Below, in pieces: positions 1,409-37,604 of a stretch of DNA of 64,000 bases. The notes below the pieces were generated by a model. It saw only the letters and a list, made by a program, of their open reading frames with translations. It did no database searches and was not told where the DNA came from. The stretch covers positions 1,798,001-1,862,000 of the forward strand of contig NZ_JARUBP010000001.1 in assembly GCF_029626225.1 (NCBI RefSeq), in the 5' to 3' direction. How positions within the stretch are numbered: position 1 is the stretch's first letter; each line of letters starts with the position of its first letter. Made by a program: the position numbers and the translations under genes. Source of the stretch: Asanoa sp. WMMD1127 (lineage in GTDB: Bacteria; Actinomycetota; Actinomycetes; Mycobacteriales; Micromonosporaceae).

Positions 1409-1504
1409 TGGCGGAGGCGTACGGGAATCGAACCCGCCTGACCCGGATGCCGGGCCACGCCGGTTTTGAAGACCGGGAGGGCCACCAGGCGCCCACTCAC
1501 CTCC
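1409..1504 (-). tRNA. selC: tRNA-Sec (anticodon TCA)
   Basis: Read on the minus strand, the molecule begins GGAGGTGA and ends ACGCCTCC-G-CCA, with the CCA encoded. The D arm is GGGC/GCCC, the anticodon stem-loop is CCGGT-CTTCAAA-ACCGG with anticodon TCA (1467-1469), the long variable arm pairs TGGCCCGG with CCGGGTCA, and the T loop is TTCGATT. The roughly 8-bp acceptor stem, long extra arm and UCA anticodon are diagnostic of selenocysteine tRNA. It sits 20 bases upstream of selA. The last acceptor pair appears as A-A, so the exact stem boundary is slightly uncertain. Confidence 0.95.
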
Positions 1505-6110: not shown

Positions 6111-6896
6111 TTAGGCGGGGGCGGCCAGCTCCAGCGTCGCCAGGTAGTAAGGGGCGTCCGCGTCGTCGATGTCCGCGATGTGCCACGGGGTGCCCGCGAC
6201 CAGCCCGCGCAGCTCTTCGACCGAGCAGACCAGGTAGTCGAACCACTCCGTGGCCAGCTCCCGGTAACGCACCCGCAGCCGCAGCTGCCCACCGAGCCGG
6301 CCGCGCGACCGGTTGAGGCGGTGGTAGGCCGTGTGCACCGGGTCGGTGGTCCCGTAGGGATCGGTGCCGTGGGCGATCAAGCGGGCGCCGGGCTTGGCCA
6401 GCGCCGCCAGCGCGCCCAGGAAGGCCGGCGCCCGGTCCGCGCCACCGATCAACCCGAGGTTGTTGCCGAGCAGCAGGAACGTGTCGTAGCGCGGGCCGAC
6501 CGCCGCGTGCTCGTCGACCGTGGCGAGCACCAGGTCCCGCACCCCGCGCTTGCGGGACACCTCGATCGCGCCGGCTGAGACGTCGAGCCCGGTGACCGCG
6601 ACACCGCGCTGCTGGAGCTCCAGCGCGATCCGCCCGGCGCCGACGCCGATGTCGAGCACGTGGCCGCGTACGCGGGAGAGGGCTCGATGGTCATGGTCCG
6701 GCCAGGCGGACGGCGGGTCGAGGTAGGGGGCGGCGGGGGCGCCGTTGATCAACCCGTCGTCGCGCTCGATGATCTCGATGACCGGCCGGGGCAGCCGACC
6801 GCCCGCCAGCGGCCGCGGCCCGATCCCGGTGGCGACGGCCAGGGCATCCCGCACCAACTCACCGAACGCGTCGCCGACCAGGGGTTCACTCACCAC
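6111..6896 (-). CDS. class I SAM-dependent methyltransferase
   Basis: A 261-residue soluble protein. The SAM-binding motif VLDIGVGAGRIALELQQRG begins at about residue 80, followed by the acidic VTGLDVSAGAIEV strand and a LLLGNNLGLIGG motif, all typical of small-molecule or protein methyltransferases of the Methyltransf_11/25 type. The substrate cannot be predicted. The start is GTG 6896 or the adjacent GTG 6893, with AAGG just upstream. It is separated from the PrsW operon by about 50 bases on the same strand. Confidence 0.8.
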   Translation of the reverse strand: MVSEPLVGDAFGELVRDALAVATGIGPRPLAGGRLPRPVIEIIERDDGLINGAPAAPYLDPPSAWPDHDHRALSRVRGHVLDIGVGAGRIALELQQRGVAVTGLDVSAGAIEVSRKRGVRDLVLATVDEHAAVGPRYDTFLLLGNNLGLIGGADRAPAFLGALAALAKPGARLIAHGTDPYGTTDPVHTAYHRLNRSRGRLGGQLRLRVRYRELATEWFDYLVCSVEELRGLVAGTPWHIADIDDADAPYYLATLELAAPA

Positions 6897-11609: not shown

Positions 11610-12761
11610 TCAGCCGCGCGTGTGCTGGCCGATCATCTGAACGGTCCCCGTGCCCTCGATGATCTCGCCGGCCTGCCACGCCTCGATGCCGCGGCCGGCG
11701 AGGAACGCGAGCGCCCGGTCGGCGTCTTCGGCGGAGACGATGGCGAACATGCCGACGCCCATGTTGAACGTCGACTCCATCTCCGGGTCTTCGATGCGGC
11801 CCTTGGACTGGACCAGGTCGAAGATCGGCTGCGGCTTCCAGGTGGACCGGTTGACCACCGCGTCGACGTGCTCGGGCAGCACCCGCACGAGGTTGCCAGG
11901 GATGCCGCCGCCGGTCACGTGGGCCAGCGCGCGCACCTCGGCCTCGGAGATCAGCTTTAGGCAGTCGCGGGCGTAGATCTTGGTCGGCGTGAGCAGCTCC
12001 TCGCCGAGCGTCCGCTGCTTGCCGAAGTCGTCGACCACCGTGTCGAGCCGCATCCGGCCGGCGCCGAGCAGCACGTGGCGGACCAGCGAGTAGCCGTTGG
12101 AGTGCAGGCCGGACGAGCGCATGGCGATGACCACGTCGCCGACCTCGACCCGGTCGCGGCCGAGGATCTCACTCTCCTCGACGACGCCGACGCCGGTCGC
12201 GGACAGGTCGTATTCGTCGGGGCGCAGGACGCCCGGGTGCTCGGCGGTCTCGCCGCCCAGCAGCGCGCAGCCGGCGTAGCGGCAGCCGTCGGAGATGCCG
12301 GCGCCGATCTCGGCGACCTTGTCGGGCACGACCTCGCCGCAGGCGATGTAGTCGAGCAGGAACAGCGGCTCGGCGCCACAGGCGACCAGGTCGTCGACGA
12401 CCATCGCGACCAGGTCGATGCCGACGGTGTCGTGGATGTCGAGCTGTTGCGCGATCACCAGCTTGGTGCCGACGCCGTCGGTCGACGAGGCCAGGATCGG
12501 GTTCTGGTAGCGCTTGGTGTCGAGCTTGAAGAGGCCGGCGAACCCGCCGAGATCACCGAGCACCTCGGGGCGCTGGGCCTTGGCCACCTTGCTCTTGAGC
12601 AGCTCGACGGCCCGCTCACCGGCGTGGATCGAGACGCCGGCGTCGGCGTACGTCACTGTGCGCTTGCGACTGGCCCGGGCAGAACCGGCCGTCCATGGCT
12701 GGAGGCCGTCCGAACCCGGAGTGTTGGCCGGGCCGCCGCCCCGCTCAGTAACGTGCGTCAC
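11610..12761 (-). CDS. purM: phosphoribosylformylglycinamidine cyclo-ligase PurM
   Basis: Fifth step of de novo IMP synthesis: closes FGAM to AIR with ATP. The 383-residue product carries TYADAGVSIHAGERAVELLK, the phosphate-binding ASSTDGVGTKL, GIDLVAMVVDDL and ALLGGETAEHPG, all characteristic of PurM; these motifs and the purF neighbour separate it from SelD. Start GTG 12761 follows AAAGGGAG with good spacing. The first ~45 residues are a low-complexity extension (THVTERGGGPANTPGSDG) longer than in E. coli PurM. It lies 49 bases downstream of purF on the same strand, forming an operon. Confidence 0.96.
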   Translation of the reverse strand: MTHVTERGGGPANTPGSDGLQPWTAGSARASRKRTVTYADAGVSIHAGERAVELLKSKVAKAQRPEVLGDLGGFAGLFKLDTKRYQNPILASSTDGVGTKLVIAQQLDIHDTVGIDLVAMVVDDLVACGAEPLFLLDYIACGEVVPDKVAEIGAGISDGCRYAGCALLGGETAEHPGVLRPDEYDLSATGVGVVEESEILGRDRVEVGDVVIAMRSSGLHSNGYSLVRHVLLGAGRMRLDTVVDDFGKQRTLGEELLTPTKIYARDCLKLISEAEVRALAHVTGGGIPGNLVRVLPEHVDAVVNRSTWKPQPIFDLVQSKGRIEDPEMESTFNMGVGMFAIVSAEDADRALAFLAGRGIEAWQAGEIIEGTGTVQMIGQHTRG

Positions 12762-12810
12762 GATTTCTCCCTTTAACGCCTGACGCGCGGTGTCTCGCTG
12801 GAGACGCCGG

Positions 12811-14388
12811 CTAGGAACGGTGCGTGCCGCCGCCGTTGGAACTGGCCGCGAGACGCTGGGCGACCAGGTGGTCGCTCGACGCCGGACGGTCGGCTCCGCC
12901 ATCGTTGCGCTGCTCGGCATCGGCGTCGACCCGCCGGGCGACGCCTTCGAGCACGTGCTTGCCGATCTGGTTGGCGGCCGGCAGCGGGATCGGGTATTCC
13001 CCGTCGAAACACGCGCGGCACAAGCGCGATTTCGGCTGCTCGGTCGCGGCCACCAGACCGCCGAGTGATACGTATCCCAACGTGTCGGCACCGATCGAGC
13101 GCCGGATGCCGTCGTTGTCGAGGCCGTTGGCCAGCAGCTCCGCGCGGGTGGCGAAGTCGATGCCGTAGAAGCACGGCCAGTTGACCGGCGGCGACGAGAT
13201 GCGCACGTGCACCTCGAGCGCGCCGGCCTCGCGCAGCATCCGGACGATCGCCCGCTGCGTGTTGCCCCGCACGATGGAGTCGTCGACCACGACGATCCGC
13301 TTGCCGCGCACGTTTTCCCGCAGCGGGTTGAGCTTGAGCCGGATGCCCAGCTGGCGCAGGGTCTGCGACGGCTGGATGAACGTGCGCCCCACGTAGGCGT
13401 TCTTGATCAGGCCCGAACCGTAGGTGATGCCGGACTCGGCGGCGTAGCCGATCGCGGCCGGCGTGCCCGACTCGGGCACGGGGATCACCATGTCGGCCTC
13501 GACCGGGTGCTCCTTGGCCAGCTGGCGGCCGATCTGCACCCGGGCGGCGTGCACGTTGCGCCCGGCGATCGTGGTGTCGGGGCGCGCGATGTAGACGTAT
13601 TCGAAGAGGCAGCCCTTGGGCTCCGGCGCCGCGAACCGCGACGAGCGCAGGCCGTCTTCGTCGATGGCGAGCAGCTCGCCGGGCTCGACCTCGCGGACGA
13701 AGCTGGCACCGACGATGTCGAGCGCCGCGGTCTCGCTGGCCACCACCCAACCGCGCTCGAGCCGGCCGAGCACCAGCGGCCGCACGCCGTAGGCGTCGCG
13801 GGCCGCGTAGAGGGTGTTCTCGTCCATGAACACGAAGCTGAACGCGCCGCGCAGCGTCGGCAGCACCTCGAGCGCGGCGGCCTCGACGGACATGTCGGGC
13901 CGGCCGGCGAGCAGCGCCGTGACCAGCGCGGTGTCGGAGGTGGTGGCCGGGTCGGTGGTCAGCTTGCGCTCGGCGACCTCACGGGCGAGCTCGGCGGTGT
14001 TGACCAGGTTGCCGTTGTGGGCCAGCGCGATGGTGGTGCCGGCGCTGGTCGCGCGAATCGTCGGCTGCGCGTTTTCCCAGGTGGAGCCACCGGTGGTGGA
14101 GTAGCGCGTGTGACCGATGGCGAGGTGGCCGCGCAGGCTCGCCAGTGTCGGCTCGTCGAAGACCTGCGCCACGAGGCCGAGATCCTTGTAGACCACGACG
14201 CCGGAGCCGTCACTGACGGCGATGCCGGCCGCTTCCTGGCCCCGGTGCTGGAGAGCGTAGAGACCGAAGTAGGTCAGCTTGGCGACCTCTTCACCCGGCC
14301 CCCACACGCCGAAGACACCGCAAGCATCCTGCGGGCCCGGCCGTTGGGGGTCGAGGTCCTGGCTCAACCGGCCGTCGCCTCGGGGCAC
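12811..14388 (-). CDS. purF: amidophosphoribosyltransferase PurF
   Basis: Committed step of purine synthesis: PRPP plus glutamine gives phosphoribosylamine. The 525-residue product begins MPRGDGRLSQDLDPQRPGPQ. DACGVFGVWG follows, whose Cys becomes the catalytic N-terminal nucleophile after propeptide removal. Next come GHTRYSTTG and the PRPP-binding loop VVVDDSIVRGNT. Start GTG 14388 has GGAG 8-11 bases upstream and matches Streptomyces PurF starts; the open frame continues further without support. The C-terminal ~50 residues are charged and variable. It is the first gene of the purF-purM operon. Confidence 0.96.
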   Translation of the reverse strand: MPRGDGRLSQDLDPQRPGPQDACGVFGVWGPGEEVAKLTYFGLYALQHRGQEAAGIAVSDGSGVVVYKDLGLVAQVFDEPTLASLRGHLAIGHTRYSTTGGSTWENAQPTIRATSAGTTIALAHNGNLVNTAELAREVAERKLTTDPATTSDTALVTALLAGRPDMSVEAAALEVLPTLRGAFSFVFMDENTLYAARDAYGVRPLVLGRLERGWVVASETAALDIVGASFVREVEPGELLAIDEDGLRSSRFAAPEPKGCLFEYVYIARPDTTIAGRNVHAARVQIGRQLAKEHPVEADMVIPVPESGTPAAIGYAAESGITYGSGLIKNAYVGRTFIQPSQTLRQLGIRLKLNPLRENVRGKRIVVVDDSIVRGNTQRAIVRMLREAGALEVHVRISSPPVNWPCFYGIDFATRAELLANGLDNDGIRRSIGADTLGYVSLGGLVAATEQPKSRLCRACFDGEYPIPLPAANQIGKHVLEGVARRVDADAEQRNDGGADRPASSDHLVAQRLAASSNGGGTHRS

Positions 14389-21398: not shown

Positions 21399-22823
21399 TC
21401 AGAGGATGGCGCCCGGTGTGTAGCCCGCAGCCGCCGGGTGCTGGCGGACCACCTCGTCGATCTTCTCGGCCACCGCGGCGACCTGCGCGCCCGCCGCGCC
21501 CACGAAGGCCGCCCGGTCGGCCACCAGTGCGTCGATCTCGCCCCGGGTCAGGCCGAGCCGGCCGTCGGCGGCCAGCCGGTCGAAGAGGTCGTTCTCCCCG
21601 GCGCCCTTCTCGCGCATCTCGAGCGCCACGGCGACCGCGTTCTCCTTGATCACCTCATGCGCCGTCTCGCGACCGACGCCCCGGCGTACGGCGGCGACCA
21701 GGATCTTGGTCGTGGCCAGGAACGGCAGGTAGCGGTCGAGCTCTCGGGCGACCACCGCGGGATAGGCGCCGAACTCGTCGAGCACTGTCAGGAACGTCTG
21801 GAAGAGGCCGTCGGTGGCGAAGAAGGCGTCGGGCAGGGCGACCCGGCGGACCACCGAATCCGAGACGTCGCCCTCGTTCCACTGGTCGCCGGCCAGCTCG
21901 CCGATCATCGACACGTAGCCGCGGACCACCACCGCCAGCCCGTTGACGCGCTCGCTGGACCGGGTGTTCATCTTGTGCGGCATCGCGCTCGAGCCGACCT
22001 GACCGGGCCGGAAGCCTTCGGTGACCAGCTCCTGGCCGACCATCAGCCGGATCGTGGTGGCCAGGCTGCTCGGTGCGGCGACGACCTGGGCCAGCGCGGT
22101 CACCACGTCGAGGTCGAGCGAGCGCGGGTAGACCTGGCCGACGCTGCTCAGCACCGACGCGAAGCCCAGGTGCGCGGCGACCCGGCGTTCGAGCTCGGCC
22201 ACCTTGGCCGCGTCGCCGTCGAAGAGGTCGAGCTGGTCGGCGGCGGTGCCGACGGGGCCCTTGATGCCGCGCAGCGGGTAGCGGGCGATGAGGTCGGTGA
22301 GCCGCTGGTACGCGATCAGCAGCTCCTCGCCGGCCGACGCGAACCGCTTGCCGAGCGTGGTCGCCTGCGCGGCGACGTTGTGCGAGCGGCCGGCCATGAC
22401 CAGGTTGTCGTGCTCGACCGCCAGCCGGGCGAGCCGGGCCAGCGCCGCCACCACCCGGTCCCGGACGAGCGCGAGCGACGAGCGGATCTGCAGCTGCTCG
22501 ACGTTCTCGGTTAGGTCCCGCGAGGTCATCCCCTTGTGGATCTGCTCGTGGCCGGCCAGGGCCGCGAACTCCTCGATCCGCGCCTTCACGTCGTGCCGGG
22601 TGACCCGCTCCCGCTCGGCGATCGAGCTCAGATCGACGTCGTCGAGCACCGCCCGGTAGGCCTCGACCACCCCGTCGGGCACGTCGATGCCGAGGTCGCG
22701 CTGCGCCTCCAACACCGCGATCCACAGGCGCCGCTCCAGCTTCACCTTCTCGGTCGGCGACCAGAGGGCGACCAACTCAGGCGAGGCGTATCGGGCGGCG
22801 AGAACGTTGGGTACCTGCGTCAC
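21399..22823 (-). CDS. purB: adenylosuccinate lyase PurB
   Basis: Cleaves fumarate from SAICAR and from adenylosuccinate, so it acts twice in AMP synthesis. The 474-residue product has the fumarase/aspartase superfamily signature GSSAMPHKMNTRSSERV (catalytic serine loop), GMTSRDLTENVEQLQ and GRSHNVAAQATTLGKRFA. Start GTG 22823 is preceded by GGAGGAT. It is transcribed alone or with the MFS gene, which ends 28 bases upstream on the same strand. Confidence 0.96.
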   Translation of the reverse strand: MTQVPNVLAARYASPELVALWSPTEKVKLERRLWIAVLEAQRDLGIDVPDGVVEAYRAVLDDVDLSSIAERERVTRHDVKARIEEFAALAGHEQIHKGMTSRDLTENVEQLQIRSSLALVRDRVVAALARLARLAVEHDNLVMAGRSHNVAAQATTLGKRFASAGEELLIAYQRLTDLIARYPLRGIKGPVGTAADQLDLFDGDAAKVAELERRVAAHLGFASVLSSVGQVYPRSLDLDVVTALAQVVAAPSSLATTIRLMVGQELVTEGFRPGQVGSSAMPHKMNTRSSERVNGLAVVVRGYVSMIGELAGDQWNEGDVSDSVVRRVALPDAFFATDGLFQTFLTVLDEFGAYPAVVARELDRYLPFLATTKILVAAVRRGVGRETAHEVIKENAVAVALEMREKGAGENDLFDRLAADGRLGLTRGEIDALVADRAAFVGAAGAQVAAVAEKIDEVVRQHPAAAGYTPGAIL

Positions 22824-28223: not shown

Positions 28224-28268
28224 ACCACGCCGCGCACGGCACCTTGTCGCTTCCTGTGCCCACGGTTA

Positions 28269-28315
28269 TTCTCATCTTGAGTTGTTCTTAGATCGAGAAG
28301 TTCTAAGTGTGAGAA
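28269..28315 (+). promoter_or_regulatory. nested inverted repeats upstream of the Nudix-led operon
   Basis: Between TTCTCA (28269-28274) and TGAGAA (28310-28315) lies a second pair, CTTAGA (28287-28292) and TCTAAG (28302-28307). The two pairs are not exactly concentric. The region is AT-rich compared with its surroundings and ends 9 bases before the first start codon. It is a candidate operator for the NrtR-like first gene product. Confidence 0.5.
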
Positions 28316-28324
28316 GGATGGGCC

Positions 28325-29080
28325 GTGGTCAACGAGCAGGAGTTCCTGGCGGGGTACGACCCGCGGGCCTATCCCGCGGTGGCGGTCACGGTCGACGTGG
28401 TCGCGCTCACCATTCGCGACGGCGAGCTCCAGGTGCTGTTGATCCAGCGGGCCGCCCCACCGTTCGCCGGCTTCTGGGCCCTGCCGGGCGGTTTCGTCCG
28501 ACCCGAGGAAGACCTGCCCGTCGCCGCCCGGCGCGAGTTCGCCGAGGAGACCGGGCTGGGCGGCGAGCCGCTGCGCCGGGTGCACTTCGAGCAGCTCGCC
28601 TCCTACGGCGCCCCCGAGCGCGATCCGCGCATGCGGATCTTCTCGATCGCCTACCTCGCCTTCGCGCCCGACCTGCCCGAGCCGTCGGCCGGCTCCGACG
28701 CCAGCGCCGCCCAGTGGCTGCCGGTCACCGCGCTGCCGAGCCGGGAGCTGGCCTTCGACCACCGGCGGATCGTCGACGACGGCCTCGAGCGGGCCCGCTC
28801 CAAGCTCGAATACACACCGCTGGCGACGCGCTTCGTCGGCGAGGAGTTCACCATCGCCGACCTGCGGGCCGTCTACGAGACGGTCTGGGGACACCCGCTG
28901 CACGCCGGCAACTTCCACCGCAAGGTGCTCTCCGTGCCAGGGCTGGTCGAGGGCACCGGCGCCACCACCGAGCACGGCGGCCCGCGCGGCGGACCCCGCG
29001 CCCGCCTCTACCGGGCCGGCGACGCCAACCTGCTGCATCCCGCCCTGCTCCGGCCGGCCCGAGAGGAGACCGTCCGATGA
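28325..29080 (+). CDS. Nudix domain plus winged-helix protein (NrtR-like)
   Basis: A 251-residue protein. Residues 18-150 form a Nudix domain with a complete box GX5EX7REUXEEXGU (GFVRPEEDLPVAARREFAEETGL), so hydrolysis may be retained. Residues ~165-225 (FTIADLRAVYETVWG..., NFHRKVLSVPGLVEGTG) match the winged helix of NrtR, a regulator that senses ADP-ribose and controls NAD metabolism genes; many NrtRs have a broken Nudix box. Start GTG 28325 follows AGAAGGA. The stop overlaps the next start (ATGA). It is the first gene of a four-gene operon and a likely local regulator. Confidence 0.85.
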   Translation: MVNEQEFLAGYDPRAYPAVAVTVDVVALTIRDGELQVLLIQRAAPPFAGFWALPGGFVRPEEDLPVAARREFAEETGLGGEPLRRVHFEQLASYGAPERDPRMRIFSIAYLAFAPDLPEPSAGSDASAAQWLPVTALPSRELAFDHRRIVDDGLERARSKLEYTPLATRFVGEEFTIADLRAVYETVWGHPLHAGNFHRKVLSVPGLVEGTGATTEHGGPRGGPRARLYRAGDANLLHPALLRPAREETVR

Positions 29081-30042
29081 CCACGCTCGACGACGCGATC
29101 CGCCGCGTCCACGAGGCCACCAGCGACGAGGAGCTGTTCGGCCCCGACGACCCGCACCGCGGCTACCTGCGGCTGGCCGCCGTGCTGCACCCCGACCGCG
29201 TCGCGCCCGGCGCCCGGGCCGCCGCGACCGACGCGTTCGTGACGCTCACCAACCGCTGGCGGGCCCGCGGGACGGTGGTCTTCGGCCGCTACCGGGTCGG
29301 CGCGGTGGCGCACACCGGCGACCTGGCCAACCTGCACGACCTCGGCCGCGGGCTGTTGCTCAAGCAGCCGCGCCGGCCGGTCAACAACGACCTGATGGAG
29401 CGCGAGGCGACGGCGCTGCGCCGGATCGCCGACGCCGGCGACCCGCGCTACCTGCCCTACGTGCCACGGATGGTCGACACGTTCCGGCACCGCGACCCGG
29501 GCACCGGCCAGGAGCGCCGGGTCAACGTGCTCGGTTCGGTGCCCCACCTGACCAGCCTGGCCGACGTCATGCGGCTGCGGCCCGAGGGCCTCGACCCGCG
29601 CGACGCCGCCTGGATCTGGCGCCGGTTGCTGGTGGCGCTCGGCCTGGCCCACCGGGCCGGCGTGGTGCACGGCGCCGTGCTGCCCGAGCACATCCTGATC
29701 GAGACCACCGACCACGGCGTCGTGCTGGTCGACTGGTGCTACTCGGTGGTCGACGGGCTCGACCACGTGCCGGCGGTGGTGGAGCGCTACGCCGACTGGT
29801 ACCCGCCCGAGGTCCACAATCGACTGCCGCCCGAGCCGGGCACCGACATCGCGATGGCCGCCCGGTCGATGACCGCGCTGATGGGTGGCCACGCGCCGGC
29901 GGCGCTGCTGTCGTTCGCCGACGGCTGCACGCTCCCGTCGCCACGGTCGCGCCCCGACGACGCCTGGGCGCTCCTCGCCGAGCTCGACGACCTGCTCGAA
30001 CGACTCTACGGCGTGCGGAAGTTCCGCCCGCTCAACCTCTAG
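29077..30042 (+). CDS. J-domain-like / protein kinase-like fusion (probable pseudokinase)
   Basis: A 321-residue protein that I cannot match to a characterised family. The N-terminus resembles a J-domain: YLRLAAVLHPDRV with the HPD motif at 38-40 and a following helix. From residue ~68 it resembles a Ser/Thr kinase: VGAVAHTGDLANLHDLGRG, a candidate beta-3 lysine (LLLKQPRR, K96), and VVHGAVLPEHILI where HRDLKPxN is expected. The catalytic Asp is Ala (A200), but DWC (219-221) keeps the metal-binding Asp of DFG. It is probably an inactive or atypical kinase that binds nucleotide or partners. ATG overlaps the Nudix stop; a VWA gene follows after 13 bases. Confidence 0.75.
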   Translation: MTTLDDAIRRVHEATSDEELFGPDDPHRGYLRLAAVLHPDRVAPGARAAATDAFVTLTNRWRARGTVVFGRYRVGAVAHTGDLANLHDLGRGLLLKQPRRPVNNDLMEREATALRRIADAGDPRYLPYVPRMVDTFRHRDPGTGQERRVNVLGSVPHLTSLADVMRLRPEGLDPRDAAWIWRRLLVALGLAHRAGVVHGAVLPEHILIETTDHGVVLVDWCYSVVDGLDHVPAVVERYADWYPPEVHNRLPPEPGTDIAMAARSMTALMGGHAPAALLSFADGCTLPSPRSRPDDAWALLAELDDLLERLYGVRKFRPLNL

Positions 30043-30055
30043 AAGGAGGCCCGCG

Positions 30056-31018
30056 ATGGGCAGCGGAGTCTGGTCAACCGATGTCTACGATGCCGCCGAC
30101 CGCTACCGGCGCACCACCGGCCGCAGCGCCTTCGCCTACAGCGACAGCGGCGCCCGCACCGTCCACCCGAAGCTCGACCCGCACGGCACCGTCCGGGAGA
30201 GCCGTGACTCGCGGGAGCACCCGGAGTCCCTCGCGATCGCGGTGGTCTTCGACGTCACCGGCTCGATGGGTGACATCCCCCGCGTGCTGCAGACCAAGCT
30301 GCCCAAGCTGCTCGGCCTGCTGCTCCGCAAGAACTACGCCCGCGACCCGCAGATCCTCTTCGCCGCGGTCGGCGACGCCACCTGTGACCGGGTGCCGCTG
30401 CAGATCGGCCAGTTCGAGTCCGACAACCGGATGGACGACGACCTCGGCCGGATCGTGCTCGAGGGCGGCGGTGGCGGCCAGATGCGCGAGTCCTACGAGC
30501 TGGCCTTCTACTACCTGGCTCGGCACACCGAGCTCGACTGCTTCACCAAGCGGGGCCGGCGCGGCTACCTGTTCGTGATCGGCGACGAGCTGGCCTACGA
30601 GCGGGTCAAGGCGCGCGAGGTGCGCAACGTCTGCGGCGACGACCTGGCCGAGGACATCCCGCTGCGGCGGATCGTCTCCGAGGTGCGCCGCAAGTACGAG
30701 ACGTTCTACCTGCTGCCGCGCGGCGCGAACTACTCCGGCAACGCCACGGTCCTCGACTTCTGGCGCGGCCTGCTCGGGCAGAACGCGATCGAGCTCGACG
30801 ACCCGGAGGCGGTGTGCGAGACGATCGCGCTGGCGGTCGGGCTCGGCGAGGCGGCGATCGACCTCGACGCCGGCCTGGCCGACCTGGCCGAGACGGGCAG
30901 CACGGTGTCCACGACGGTGTCCAGCGCGCTGGCCACGGTGGACCGTGGCGGTCGGGTCCTGTCGACCTGGGGCCTGCCGACCACGCTGCAGGGCGACGAC
31001 CGGATCAGCCGGCTATGA
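30056..31018 (+). CDS. von Willebrand factor A domain protein
   Basis: A 320-residue cytosolic protein with a VWA fold. AIAVVFDVTGSMGDIP contains a DxTxS form of the metal-ion-dependent adhesion site (D66, T68, S70). FAAVGDATCDRVPLQIGQFE and YLFVIGDELAYERV provide later strands; GGGGGQMRESYELAFYYLARHT is conserved-looking. There is no signal peptide or membrane segment. Such cytosolic VWA proteins usually act in assemblies with ATPases, kinases or proteases. AAGGAGG lies 7 bases before ATG 30056. The stop overlaps the start of the PurA-like gene by four bases. Confidence 0.85.
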   Translation: MGSGVWSTDVYDAADRYRRTTGRSAFAYSDSGARTVHPKLDPHGTVRESRDSREHPESLAIAVVFDVTGSMGDIPRVLQTKLPKLLGLLLRKNYARDPQILFAAVGDATCDRVPLQIGQFESDNRMDDDLGRIVLEGGGGGQMRESYELAFYYLARHTELDCFTKRGRRGYLFVIGDELAYERVKAREVRNVCGDDLAEDIPLRRIVSEVRRKYETFYLLPRGANYSGNATVLDFWRGLLGQNAIELDDPEAVCETIALAVGLGEAAIDLDAGLADLAETGSTVSTTVSSALATVDRGGRVLSTWGLPTTLQGDDRISRL

Positions 31019-32304
31019 ACCACGTGCTGGTGGCCGACCTGGGATACGGCGACGCGGGCAAGGGCACCGTCGTCGACTGGTTGTGCGCGAAGGGAATCGA
31101 CGGCCGCCCGGTTGCCGCAGTGGTGCGGTACAACGGGGGCGGGCAGGCCGGCCACAGTGTCGTTCTGCCCGACGGGCGGCGTCATGTCTTCGCCCAGTTC
31201 GGCGCCGGCACGTTGCGTGGCGTGCACACGCACCTGTCGCGGTTCATGGTGGTCGACCCCTTGGCGCTCGTCGTCGAGGCCGACCACCTGGCCGACATCG
31301 GCGTGCCGGACGCGTTCGAGCGCCTGACCGTCGAAGGTGACGCGCTGCTCGCCACGCCTTACCACCGGGCGGCCAACCGCGCCCGGGAGATCGCCCGCGG
31401 TGCCCACCGGCATGGGTCCTGCGGGAAGGGGGTGGGCGAGGCTATGGGGTACGCCCTCGCCCACCCCGCCGACGCGCCCCGGGTGGCCGACGCGCAGGCG
31501 CCCGGGGTGCTCGGCGCGAAGCTGGCGGTGCTCCGCGACCGGCTCGTCGACGAGCTGGGTCCGCTGGACGTGCCGCCGATCGACGCGACGGTGCGCGCCT
31601 TCGGCGCGTTCGCCGCGCGGGTCCCGATCGTCAGCCGGGCGTTCCTCGGCGACCTGCTGGCGGTCGGCCCGGTGGTTTTCGAGGGTGCGCAGGGTGTGCT
31701 GCTCGACGAGTGGCACGGCTTCCACCCGTACACCACCTGGAGCACGACGACGTTCGACAACGCGGAGACGTTGCTGGGCGAGGGGGGTCAGGCCGGCAAC
31801 GCGACGCGGCTCGGCGTGCTCCGGGTGGTGACCACGCGGCACGGCCCGGGTCCCTTGGTCACCGAGGACCCGGGTCTGCCGCTGACCGACCCCAACAACC
31901 CGACCAACCGCTGGCAGGGCCGGTTCCGGTTCGGGCACTTCGACGCGGTGGCGCACCGGTACGCGGTGGAGGTGTGCGATGGGGTCGACGGGATCGCGCT
32001 GACCCACCTCGACGTGGCTTCGCCGGCCCTCAAGTTCTGCTCGTCCTATGACTGGACGGACCGGCTGGTGCCCGGACCCGTCGGCGACCTCCACCGGCAG
32101 GAGGCGTTGACCCGGCGGCTGTTCAGCACGCGACCGCGCTACTCCCCGGCGCCGGTCGACTGGCCGGGCACGGTCTCGGCCGAGCTGGACACCCCGGTGG
32201 TGATCACCTCGCACGGCCCGACGGCGGAGGCCAAGCAGGTGCTCAGGCCGAACTGGGCTGCCAGAGCTCACCCCGTAGGAGCTGGCGGGCACCCAGCCAG
32301 GTGA
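31015..32304 (+). CDS. divergent adenylosuccinate synthetase paralogue (PurA-like)
   Basis: A 429-residue GTP-dependent ligase of the PurA fold. The P-loop is GYGDAGKGT, keeping the catalytic Asp (D13) but with Ala where PurA has Glu. GQAGHSVV keeps the catalytic His (H47). CGKGVGEAM replaces TGRGIGPAY. FEGAQGVLLDEWHGFHPYTTWSTTT, HGPGPLVTED and FGHFDAVAHRYAV align with PurA segments. The last ~25 residues are an extra tail. These changes, and its place in an operon with Nudix, pseudokinase and VWA genes rather than with pur genes, suggest a special substrate. ATG 31015 overlaps the VWA stop. The 3' end runs 62 bases into the convergent TetR gene. Confidence 0.85.
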   Translation: MNHVLVADLGYGDAGKGTVVDWLCAKGIDGRPVAAVVRYNGGGQAGHSVVLPDGRRHVFAQFGAGTLRGVHTHLSRFMVVDPLALVVEADHLADIGVPDAFERLTVEGDALLATPYHRAANRAREIARGAHRHGSCGKGVGEAMGYALAHPADAPRVADAQAPGVLGAKLAVLRDRLVDELGPLDVPPIDATVRAFGAFAARVPIVSRAFLGDLLAVGPVVFEGAQGVLLDEWHGFHPYTTWSTTTFDNAETLLGEGGQAGNATRLGVLRVVTTRHGPGPLVTEDPGLPLTDPNNPTNRWQGRFRFGHFDAVAHRYAVEVCDGVDGIALTHLDVASPALKFCSSYDWTDRLVPGPVGDLHRQEALTRRLFSTRPRYSPAPVDWPGTVSAELDTPVVITSHGPTAEAKQVLRPNWAARAHPVGAGGHPAR

Positions 32305-36381: not shown

Positions 36382-36494
36382 TCGCGCCGGTATCGTCACT
36401 CTCTGTTGCTGCTGGCGGCTTCCCGGCGCGACAAATGCCACACACCACGCATAGCCGGTGGACGCTCGTAGCCGAGAGTAGTCACACTCGGTGC

Positions 36495-37604
36495 ATGCTC
36501 GACGGCCGAATCCCCAGCGGCGGTGCCGGCGAACACACCGGTCCCCTGGGTCGCATCCTCCACTTCGACGACATGGACGTGCCGTCCGACGTCGTCGACG
36601 CTCTGGCGCTGTCCAGTTTCGTCTCCGGCGACCAGCCGTGGGCGCGGACGAAGCGCCTCGACCGCGTACGTGCTGACGCCAGCCTGCTCCCAGCCGGCGC
36701 CAAGCTCGCCCGGGTCGCGGTCGACGAGGGCCGCGACGCCCGCCTCGCGATCGGCGAGGGTTGGACGGTCCGCGCGGTCCGCTGGCGCACCGGTGGCGCC
36801 TCCGTCACCGTCACCGCGACGACCGAGGACCTGGCCGAGTCAGTACTGGCCGAGTGTGTCGCCGGCGCGGCCGAGCCGCCCAAGGTCGACACCAGCGAGG
36901 TGGAGATCGGCTTCTGGCACCAGTCGCAGATGGGCCCGACGCGCACGGCCCGCAACGTGGCCTGCGACGAATGGACGGCGATCCGCGACAACTACGAGAA
37001 GACCGCCGGCGAGGCGATCGACCGCTTGACGGACCTCACCCCCGCCACCGTCAACGGCCGGCTGCTGATCATGCACGGCAGCCCCGGCACGGGTAAGACC
37101 ACCGCGCTGCGGGCGCTGGCCCGCGCCTGGCGGGACTGGTGCCAGGTCGACTTCGTGATCGACCCGCAGCAGCTGTTCACGGACCCGGGCTACCTGGCAA
37201 AGGTCGCGGCCGGCGGGCCGACGGACAGCCGCCGCTGGCGACTGCTCCTCCTCGAGGACAGCGACGACCTGATCCGCGCCGACGGCATGACCGCCACCAC
37301 CCAGCAGCTGTCGCGCCTGCTCAACCTGACCGACGGCCTGCTCGGCCAAGGCGGCAACGTGATCGTCGCGGTGACCACCAACGAGAAGATCGGCCGCCTG
37401 CACCCCGCGGTGCTGCGTCCGGGCCGCTGCATGGCCCAGATCGAGGTCGGACCGCTGCCCTACGAGCAGGCCACGCAGTGGCTGGGCTCCGCAACAGGCG
37501 TCGGCGCGTACGGCGCGACGCTCGCGGAACTGCTGGCGCTGCGCGACGGCAAGCCCGCGGTGGCGACCCCGTCCGCGCCGCCCTCCAGCGGCTTCTACCT
37601 CTGA
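36495..37604 (+). CDS. DUF5925 / AAA-family ATPase
   Basis: A 369-residue actinobacterial protein. Residues 1-110 match DUF5925 (HFDDMDVPSDVVDALALSSFVSGDQPW, DASLLPAGAKLARVA). The AAA domain has Walker A GSPGTGKTT at about residue 198, Walker B RLLLLEDSDDL, a sensor TTNEKIGRLHPAVLRPGRC with the arginine finger, and the small lid domain. It resembles the Bcs1/proteasomal ATPase-like group. No partner gene is evident. I prefer ATG 36495, where the product aligns with relatives; ATG 36435 adds 20 unlikely residues. There is no ribosome site, so it may be leaderless. Confidence 0.85.
   Translation: MLDGRIPSGGAGEHTGPLGRILHFDDMDVPSDVVDALALSSFVSGDQPWARTKRLDRVRADASLLPAGAKLARVAVDEGRDARLAIGEGWTVRAVRWRTGGASVTVTATTEDLAESVLAECVAGAAEPPKVDTSEVEIGFWHQSQMGPTRTARNVACDEWTAIRDNYEKTAGEAIDRLTDLTPATVNGRLLIMHGSPGTGKTTALRALARAWRDWCQVDFVIDPQQLFTDPGYLAKVAAGGPTDSRRWRLLLLEDSDDLIRADGMTATTQQLSRLLNLTDGLLGQGGNVIVAVTTNEKIGRLHPAVLRPGRCMAQIEVGPLPYEQATQWLGSATGVGAYGATLAELLALRDGKPAVATPSAPPSSGFYL

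Follow-up and report, generated by a model that had tools for sequence, protein, structure and literature searches.

Operon organization

The DNA analyzed here is a stretch of 64,000 nucleotides (the window) from contig NZ_JARUBP010000001.1 of Asanoa sp. WMMD1127, an actinomycete with a genome of 7.97 Mb. At positions 28325–32304 of its plus strand the window contains four consecutive genes, which we call NUD, KIN, VWA and PUR and which recur together in actinobacteria and, in part, in phages and plasmids. NUD (28325–29080) encodes an NrtR-type regulator of 251 residues with a NUDIX domain (residues ~24–151) and a winged helix (residues 171–230). KIN (29077–30042, 321 residues) comprises a J-domain (residues ~4–63, HPD motif at 38–40) followed by a pseudokinase (residues ~67–321). 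VWA (30056–31018, 320 residues) is a protein with a metal-ion-dependent adhesion site (MIDAS); it starts with Met-Gly and carries the motifs DVTGS (residues 66–70) and GDE (residues 176–178). PUR (31015–32304, 429 residues) is a divergent PurA-like ligase.

NUD and KIN as well as VWA and PUR overlap by four bases in an ATGA junction (29077–29080 and 31015–31018, respectively). KIN and VWA are separated by a gap of 13 bases (30043–30055), which begins with the ribosome-binding site AAGGAGG (30043–30049). The original prediction, made from the sequence alone, had described a tightly coupled set of four genes; all four open reading frames lie where it placed them and the coupling holds, except that the sequence has three junctions and not four. 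Its domain assignments (Nudix-helix-turn-helix, J-domain/pseudokinase, VWA and PurA-like) are all borne out by Pfam, structure models and Foldseek. Upstream of NUD there are two predicted NUD operators (no strand assigned): operator 1 is the palindrome TTATTCTCATCTTGAGTTGTT (28266–28286), found in a Gibbs palindrome search with the pattern match proper at 28269–28286, and operator 2 is TTCTTAGATCGAGAAGTT (28285–28302), a pattern match in both window and genome.

Distribution of the module

A VWA profile scan of genome contigs yielded at least 568 relatives among 589 stretches, of which the best 80 were retained as the bacterial set. All 80 loci are actinobacterial. In 72 of them tblastn located NUD, KIN, VWA and PUR on one strand and in this order. 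Six further loci contain NUD, VWA and PUR with KIN not detected, locus L056 begins within KIN at a contig end, and locus L111 shows NUD and VWA only. The gene order in 72 of 80 loci exceeds chance, and the module is real and widespread. The original prediction, which had staked its operon on co-occurrence across genomes, withstood this comparison. VWA is present in 74 of 150 sampled genomes of the host's family and in 2 of 396 genomes across the phylum, the latter count being perhaps too low because scoring was limited to five candidates per genome.

Phage records matching VWA numbered 207 (188 Mycobacterium, 10 Rhizobium, 6 Vibrio and 3 other), some of them RefSeq/GenBank duplicates; the two mycobacteriophages examined are Bixzunavirus. 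Plasmids contributed 21 records. On the plasmids of Tsukamurella (L013) and Rhodococcus (L014) NUD lies downstream, on that of Agrobacterium (L016) it is found upstream in divergent orientation, and the Acetobacter plasmid (L017) has a partial NUD-like open reading frame upstream that is annotated as hypothetical. IMG/VR contained 321 VWA relatives and at least 517 PUR relatives, the latter mixed with other PurA kinds; the best 80 of each were kept. The resulting 172 phage and plasmid loci fell into 96 groups, 53 of them with KIN, VWA and PUR only and 20 with VWA and PUR only. VWA and PUR occurred together in 83 of the 96 groups, a rate biased by retrieval of the loci via VWA or PUR. Genes of the phage loci were predicted by a simple caller without start-site modelling, with which the starts of individual rows may run long. 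The module is a phage module too, with VWA and PUR as the usual core and KIN undetected in some loci.

The PurA-like ligase

PUR shares the PurA fold family (PF00709, E = 4.2e-54; phrog_1211, 2.8e-72). It stays below the cut-offs of all five PurA models that it matched by a wide margin, for example with 111.7 bits versus 395.55 for TIGR00184 and 148.4 versus 402 for NF002223. Eighteen of 18 PUR family rows matched PurA models at an E-value of 0.001, a count that leaves the cut-offs aside. The host genome encodes a second, canonical PurA, and this protein was the reference for a residue survey of 170 PUR family rows (79 bacterial, 91 from phages and plasmids). The roles of the surveyed residues are those of E. 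coli PurA: the aspartate loop, the ribose contact, the GTP specificity of Asp333 and the contribution of Arg143 from the other subunit.

The equivalents of Asp13, Lys16, His41 and Gln224 are kept in every row that has a residue at the respective position (Asp13 in 168 of 168). Thr239 is kept in 164 of 169 rows and the guanine-binding Asp333 in 167 of 169. The ribose-contacting Val273 is replaced by His in all 169 rows with a residue. In the aspartate loop, Thr301 is changed to Gln (164 of 169) and Thr300 to Trp (136 of 169, the remainder mostly Phe). Arg305 is retained in 168 of 169 rows, Arg303 is an Arg in 27 of 170, and Lys331 has become His or Cys in 162 of 169. The position of the cross-subunit Arg143 is occupied by Arg in 7 of 170 rows. 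The loop mostly reads [W/F]QG.x.R versus TTGR(x)R in PurA and lacks one residue relative to the canonical sequences used for comparison. The automatic alignment to PurA was shifted by one column here, and the register of the loop was assigned manually with the motifs as a guide. Since the catalytic residues are kept and the substrate residues are changed, PUR has most likely retained the GTP-dependent activation of a 6-oxopurine, whereas its amine and sugar sites most likely differ from those of PurA. The dimer contact is perhaps altered as well.

A tree of the PurA-like branch, one of the checks suggested with the original prediction, places PUR in a clade apart from canonical PurA. It was calculated with FastTree from 117 sequences (every fourth bacterial row and the phage and plasmid rows of at least 300 residues, with PurZ sequences left out). 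Five canonical PurA sequences are separated from the PUR clade with a support of 0.95, and the PUR-clade split has a support of 1.0 with a third PurA kind from Agrobacterium included. This third kind is encoded on the Agrobacterium fabrum plasmid pAt1D132a (L274:4443–6044). It is a fusion of AAA_18 with PF00709, has Ser for Asp13, branches outside the PUR clade and lies near an annotated metallophosphoesterase, a UvrD-type helicase and an integrase.

Could PUR be an extra adenylosuccinate synthetase, working on IMP, aspartate and GTP under different regulation to boost adenylate, with VWA and KIN as assembly factors and purB completing the path? The fold and the retained residues, from the P-loop Asp13/Lys16 through His41, Gln224, Thr239 and Asp333 to Arg305, are those of PurA (E. 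coli, PDB-entries 1ade and 1kjx). Moreover, the only purB in the genome above the TIGR00928 cut-off lies 5.5 kb upstream of the operon (21399–22823, minus strand). We nevertheless consider this function unlikely for PUR in view of the missed cut-offs, the remodelled and shortened aspartate loop, the exchanges at Val273, Arg303, Arg143 and Lys331, the separate clade, the usual company of VWA and the canonical PurA already present in the genome. About 200 phage records and many actinobacterial loci carry PUR, often labelled adenylosuccinate synthetase. Judged by its active site, partners and regulator, PUR looks like something other than that enzyme.

Phage annotations name PUR a 'PurA-like adenylosuccinate synthetase' or a '2-aminooxy adenylosuccinate synthetase' and KIN a kinase (see also PMC9476963). 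The second label, which is also the name of phrog_1211, points to PurZ/PurZ0, the succino-amino-deoxyadenylate synthetase of Z-DNA phages and likewise a phage-borne PurA paralogue. A PurZ function was rejected because PUR keeps Asp13 and misses the cut-off of the PurZ model NF038379 (30.8 versus 300 bits). In contrast, all 147 phage PurZ sequences have Ser for Asp13 (PMC12884076). The same study assigned 147 of 481 phage PF00709 proteins to the PurZ group, and the available parts of its text contain nothing on the others.

Regulator and operators

NUD matches NUDIX (PF00293, E = 1.3e-22, 80.6 bits versus a Pfam cut-off of 21.1) and NrtR_WHD (PF21906, 41.4 bits versus 27), and it fails the cut-off of the NrtR equivalog model NF050029 (135.2 versus 400). 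The best match in the PDB was entry 3gz5, which we take to be NrtR from Shewanella (SoNrtR). SoNrtR is ADP-ribose-dependent and contacts its ligand via Tyr10, Arg41 and Arg98 (PMC4666351). Assuming an inferred chain offset of three, these residues correspond to Tyr11, Arg42 and Arg102 of NUD, and all 78 bacterial loci with a NUD match retain them. An arabinose-type regulator (AraR_C, 17.8 versus 23.8 bits) is disfavoured because the equivalent of Arg98, a Gly in the arabinose sensor BtAraR (PMC4666351), is retained in NUD. By its domains, ligand contacts and operator NUD can be regarded as an NrtR relative, and by cut-off it is not an equivalog. The ADP-ribose-type sensor of the original prediction gains support from the kept contacts and the predicted operator.

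The Nudix residues Arg, Glu, Glu and Glu are present in 78 of 78 bacterial NUD rows, and the full spaced Nudix box is matched in 52 of the 78. In MsNrtR, by comparison, the Nudix motif is altered and inactive (PMC6800001). Because NUD keeps these residues, unlike MsNrtR, it might also hydrolyse its own ligand.

The Gibbs search with a palindrome model, run on 40 of 71 dereplicated upstream regions, converged on TTCTTCTCAGACTGAGAAGAA-like sites, which scored 22.2 bits against 7.2 bits for one shuffled set. The strict core TCTCA-N3-[T/C]GAG is found in 53 of 79 upstream regions and absent from the other 26; among control stretches it turned up once in 1580 shuffled and once in 1517 random ones. 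Within the window the operator pattern matches only the two sites described above (0.01 matches expected), and these are also the sole matches across the 8-Mb genome for this pattern, which was derived from the two sites themselves and would let weaker sites escape. With only two matches in the whole genome, NUD probably acts locally, as an autoregulator dedicated to this operon. The motif is unlike the mycobacterial NrtR box, GTTTTCGA-N7-TCGAAAAC (PMC6800001), and NrtR boxes differ between lineages (PMC4666351). Overall, NUD resembles SoNrtR and MsNrtR in its combination of Nudix domain and winged helix, in the palindrome in front of its own gene and in its predicted ADP-ribose contacts. It differs from them in that, in the actinobacterial loci, it adjoins KIN, VWA and PUR and no nad genes.

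The genome contains a second NrtR-type regulator (contig position 6308406–6309086) with 50% identity to NUD and an intact Nudix motif. No NAD gene was recognized by eye among the open reading frames of its 3.7-kb locus.

J-domain pseudokinase

Against Pfam, KIN gave weak kinase matches only; it belongs to phrog_3043 (1.2e-55). Its structure model (pLDDT 95.1) shows the HPD motif between two helices (residues 26–37 and 44–63), followed by a kinase fold with PknB as the best Foldseek match (4.1e-10). HGA stands for HRD, so that Ala takes the place of the catalytic Asp, whose absence the original prediction had recognized. KIN accordingly lacks the residue by which active Hanks-type kinases are told and has the HPD of J-domains.

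The catalytic Asp is absent in 72 of 73 bacterial KIN rows (the remaining one has a gap) and in 65 of 69 phage and plasmid rows. Only one of the four rows with this Asp, L028, keeps DFG too (HGD + DFG). The HPD motif, scored at its Asp, is present in 71 of 73 bacterial rows (2 gaps) and in 59 of 69 rows from phages and plasmids. L028, from a 485-kb phage, matches both DnaJ (PF00226, 1e-14) and Pkinase (7.2e-29) in a single protein; the KIN family is therefore a J-domain/kinase fusion, most members of which lack the catalytic Asp.

VWA protein

No Pfam family matched VWA, which belongs to phrog_2971 (1.4e-74). The nearest folds in the PDB to its model (pLDDT 91.2) are integrin I/VWA domains (Foldseek E = 2.7e-7). 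The MIDAS motif within this VWA fold has the form DxTxS (DVTGS) versus the DxSxS type. Among 167 VWA rows, Asp66 is conserved in 166, Thr68 in 165 and Ser70 in 166. The closest named relatives of the window's VWA are from Asanoa (88–91% identity).

The N-terminus is also conserved, with Met1 in 78 and Gly2 in 80 of 80 bacterial rows and each of them in 84 of 87 phage and plasmid rows. Together with the remodelled amine-donor loop of PUR and the frequent pairing of the two proteins, such a start would suit a reaction in which PUR couples a purine nucleotide to an amino group of a protein, e.g. at the Met-Gly terminus of VWA, which would then be substrate and carrier instead of partner. We regard this as very improbable. 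A conserved start could be structural, and L111 has VWA with PUR not detected. Furthermore, we know of no PurA relative that modifies proteins.

The VWA gene of Mycobacterium phage Alice (gp247, L029:5001–6785) has a large in-frame insert directly before the conserved FIGDE. By eye the insert is intein-like, beginning with Cys and ending with Ser-Asn ahead of a Cys; it matched no Pfam family at an E-value of 0.001. Similar two-piece matches occur in further mycobacteriophage records.

Genes near the module in phages

We scanned 244 of 254 operon-neighbour proteins, with one phage or plasmid locus per group, against Pfam. Among the matches listed (the first 25 of 48 and of 39 families in the two halves of the scan), NAMPT-type proteins were the most frequent NAD family (5), besides NADAR (4) and Metallophos (4, all from one half); NadA was among the single matches. 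The arrangements vary. L022 and L023 read NrtR-NAMPT-VWA-PUR-KIN and include a cytidylyltransferase-like protein. L126 has VWA, a Nudix protein, NAMPT, PUR and KIN in this order, and L189 has NUD-NAMPT-VWA...PUR-KIN. L196 shows NUD and NAMPT, then a protein that we read as radical-SAM-like, then VWA, PUR and KIN. In L241, KIN-VWA-...-PUR-NADAR is followed, after intervening genes, by NadA and NadK, the former assigned by our own reading and one Pfam NadA match.

The N-terminal halves of two of these neighbours appeared by eye to be CinA/PncC-like (L022:9467–10603) and NMNAT (L126:7036–7962), assignments left unconfirmed by Pfam, whose only matches in these proteins were a cytidylyltransferase-like and a NUDIX domain. 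A Nuc_deoxyri_tr2 protein or a relative lies near the module in L024 (470–1681), L022, L023 and L192. In Vibrio phage phiKT1024 (L026), NADAR and an annotated TROVE (Ro60-like) protein, at 6201–6845 and 12566–14074, flank VWA and PUR, and KIN was not called. L155 and 10 related IMG/VR loci, which form one group, have an ATP-dependent DNA ligase downstream of the module (11 of 11); in L155 the two are separated by an R2K ATP-grasp protein.

Comparison with known systems

NARP2 is reportedly a phage NAD reconstitution pathway. The phage form of the module resembles NARP1 and NARP2 as a set of phage genes around a NAMPT-type enzyme in an NAD context (PMC12774641, PMC13232231). The NARP1 core, however, consists of Adps and Namat, and the phage neighbours found here are NAMPT-type proteins unsorted between NAMPT and Namat. 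Neither 'vwa' nor 'adenylosuccinate' occurs in the available text of PMC13232231. ARG-centred ADP-ribose conflict systems (PMC9503650) share with the operon a Nudix/WYL repressor, a vWA 'chaperone' and the ADP-ribose context, whereas the operon has no ADP-ribosylglycohydrolase or phosphatase among its genes. The section on these systems, as far as available, mentions no PurA-like or J-pseudokinase part, and 'adenylosuccinate' is absent from the accessible text. In Ter and MoxR-VWA systems, too, VWA appears in the context of signalling or chaperones (PMC7824862, PMC7159879); the four genes here, in contrast, come without TerB/C/D or a MoxR AAA+ protein, and 'adenylosuccinate' occurs in neither of these papers. 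Among the papers listed in searches of the open literature (10–30 per search), with most subscription papers and all non-PMC preprints outside, we found no description of the combined four-part system, in agreement with the original prediction.

PADLOC matched no system in the operon and gave weak kinase-fold and NUDIX matches only. A known anti-phage defence system was discarded for this reason. The module could still be a conflict system, in bacteria for defence and in phages for counter-defence, which responds to NAD-depleting immunity much as phage NAD reconstitution does. Reconstitution of NAD from ADP-ribose is known in phages (PMC12774641; PMC13232231, a preprint), and the module is found in large phages and on plasmids, has NADAR, NAMPT-type and NrtR neighbours and is patchy within the host's family (see above). 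We consider such a role doubtful, and rather unlikely on balance, because besides the PADLOC result the operon in the window has no effector domain, and its flanking genes recur in 19–22 of the 80 bacterial loci, which there speaks for a resident function more than for a defence island.

Proposed mechanism

Based on the conserved residues, operators and gene neighbourhoods we tentatively propose, as a possibility that still falls short of being probable, that the operon encodes a purine-ligase module which is NAD-linked and responds to ADP-ribose, and in which VWA and the J-pseudokinase act as partner or chaperone. In the resting state NUD would act as a repressor at the pair of palindromic operators that precede its operon, binding to these sites being predicted. 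ADP-ribose or a close NAD breakdown product would then release NUD, as the conserved ligand contacts suggest. Once expressed, PUR would use GTP for activating a hypoxanthine-type nucleotide at its 6-oxo group and would attach an amine there, in a PurA-like reaction. In view of the kept catalytic and remodelled substrate residues, the amine donor may differ from that of PurA, and/or the sugar may be a different one or the nucleotide larger. VWA, via its metal-dependent MIDAS face, would be the usual partner of PUR, to which the pairing of both genes points. KIN, which appears to be optional, could either recruit an Hsp70-type chaperone or, as an adaptor that senses nucleotides, assemble or regulate the VWA-PUR pair. 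The product might be used for the restoration of adenylate or NAD, or for another NAD-dependent step, during NAD loss. A benefit of this kind would account for those large phages in which NAD synthesis genes lie next to the module.

The position of NAD genes was evaluated in 50 whole phage records of more than 100 kb, picked from 67 after the neighbour survey had been seen. NAMPT-type genes are present in 10 of the records and lie within 8 kb of the module in 6 of these (expected 0.67, P = 1.2e-5). NrtR_WHD occurs in four records, in all of them within 5 kb (expected 0.18, P = 2.9e-6). NADAR is found in 20 records, 6 times within 5 kb (expected 1.07, P = 4.3e-4) and 16 times within 30 kb (expected 4.71, P = 5.4e-8). 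In some of the phages, genes of these three types lie closer to the module than chance placement would predict.

Several observations weigh against the proposed NAD-linked ligase module. The P values assume uniform placement and independent records, and five distances were tried. For NAMPT-type genes the count at 30 kb is still 6, at which P weakens to 0.006; four of the 10 genes lie at least 85 kb away, and 40 of the 50 records have none. Phage-derived probes for NAMPT, NADAR, NadM-like, NadA and NadK proteins had no match in the 80 bacterial loci (E-value of 1e-10 and half coverage, at which divergent genes could escape), so that in bacteria the NAD link depends on the regulator. Both the ADP-ribose contacts and the Nudix residues are less well kept in the eight NUD rows from phages and plasmids, and certain NrtR relatives respond to other ligands such as arabinose (PMC4666351). 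Finally, the partner or chaperone role of VWA and KIN is one that we only infer.

A bolder version would make VWA, KIN and PUR a new, ADP-ribose-switched complex that aminates C6 of a nucleotide which carries hypoxanthine but is not IMP. Candidates would be the hypoxanthine counterparts of NAD and ADP-ribose as well as nucleotides with a deoxy or 2'-substituted sugar. Such a complex might re-aminate a damaged NAD or adenylate pool or make a novel, NADase-resistant purine, and phages would use it to keep NAD chemistry running. We judge it improbable in this specific form. If the NAD-linked module proposed here is true, biochemistry would gain a new arrangement: a PurA-type ligase that needs a metal-binding VWA protein and a chaperone-linked pseudokinase and is switched by an NAD breakdown product. 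The module would also supply a part so far missing from phage NAD metabolism, where the arms race between phages and their hosts is currently active. The system is small and can be tested in E. coli.

Chromosomal surroundings

The gene purB was matched in 8 of the 80 bacterial loci, a count partly out of reach because most loci extend only 8 kb upstream of VWA. The thiolase/SDR/MaoC and TetR/SCP2/ACAD genes that flank the operon are found in 19–22 of these loci; those displayed belong to Asanoa and Micromonospora. Since these genes recur likewise, a specific linkage of purB to the operon was set aside, and its vicinity looks like a shared chromosomal neighbourhood. A DUF5925-AAA ATPase fusion (36435–37604, plus strand) lies 4 kb downstream of the operon and was matched in 11 of the 80 loci. 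Near the start of the window there is a selenocysteine tRNA gene (1409–1504, minus strand).

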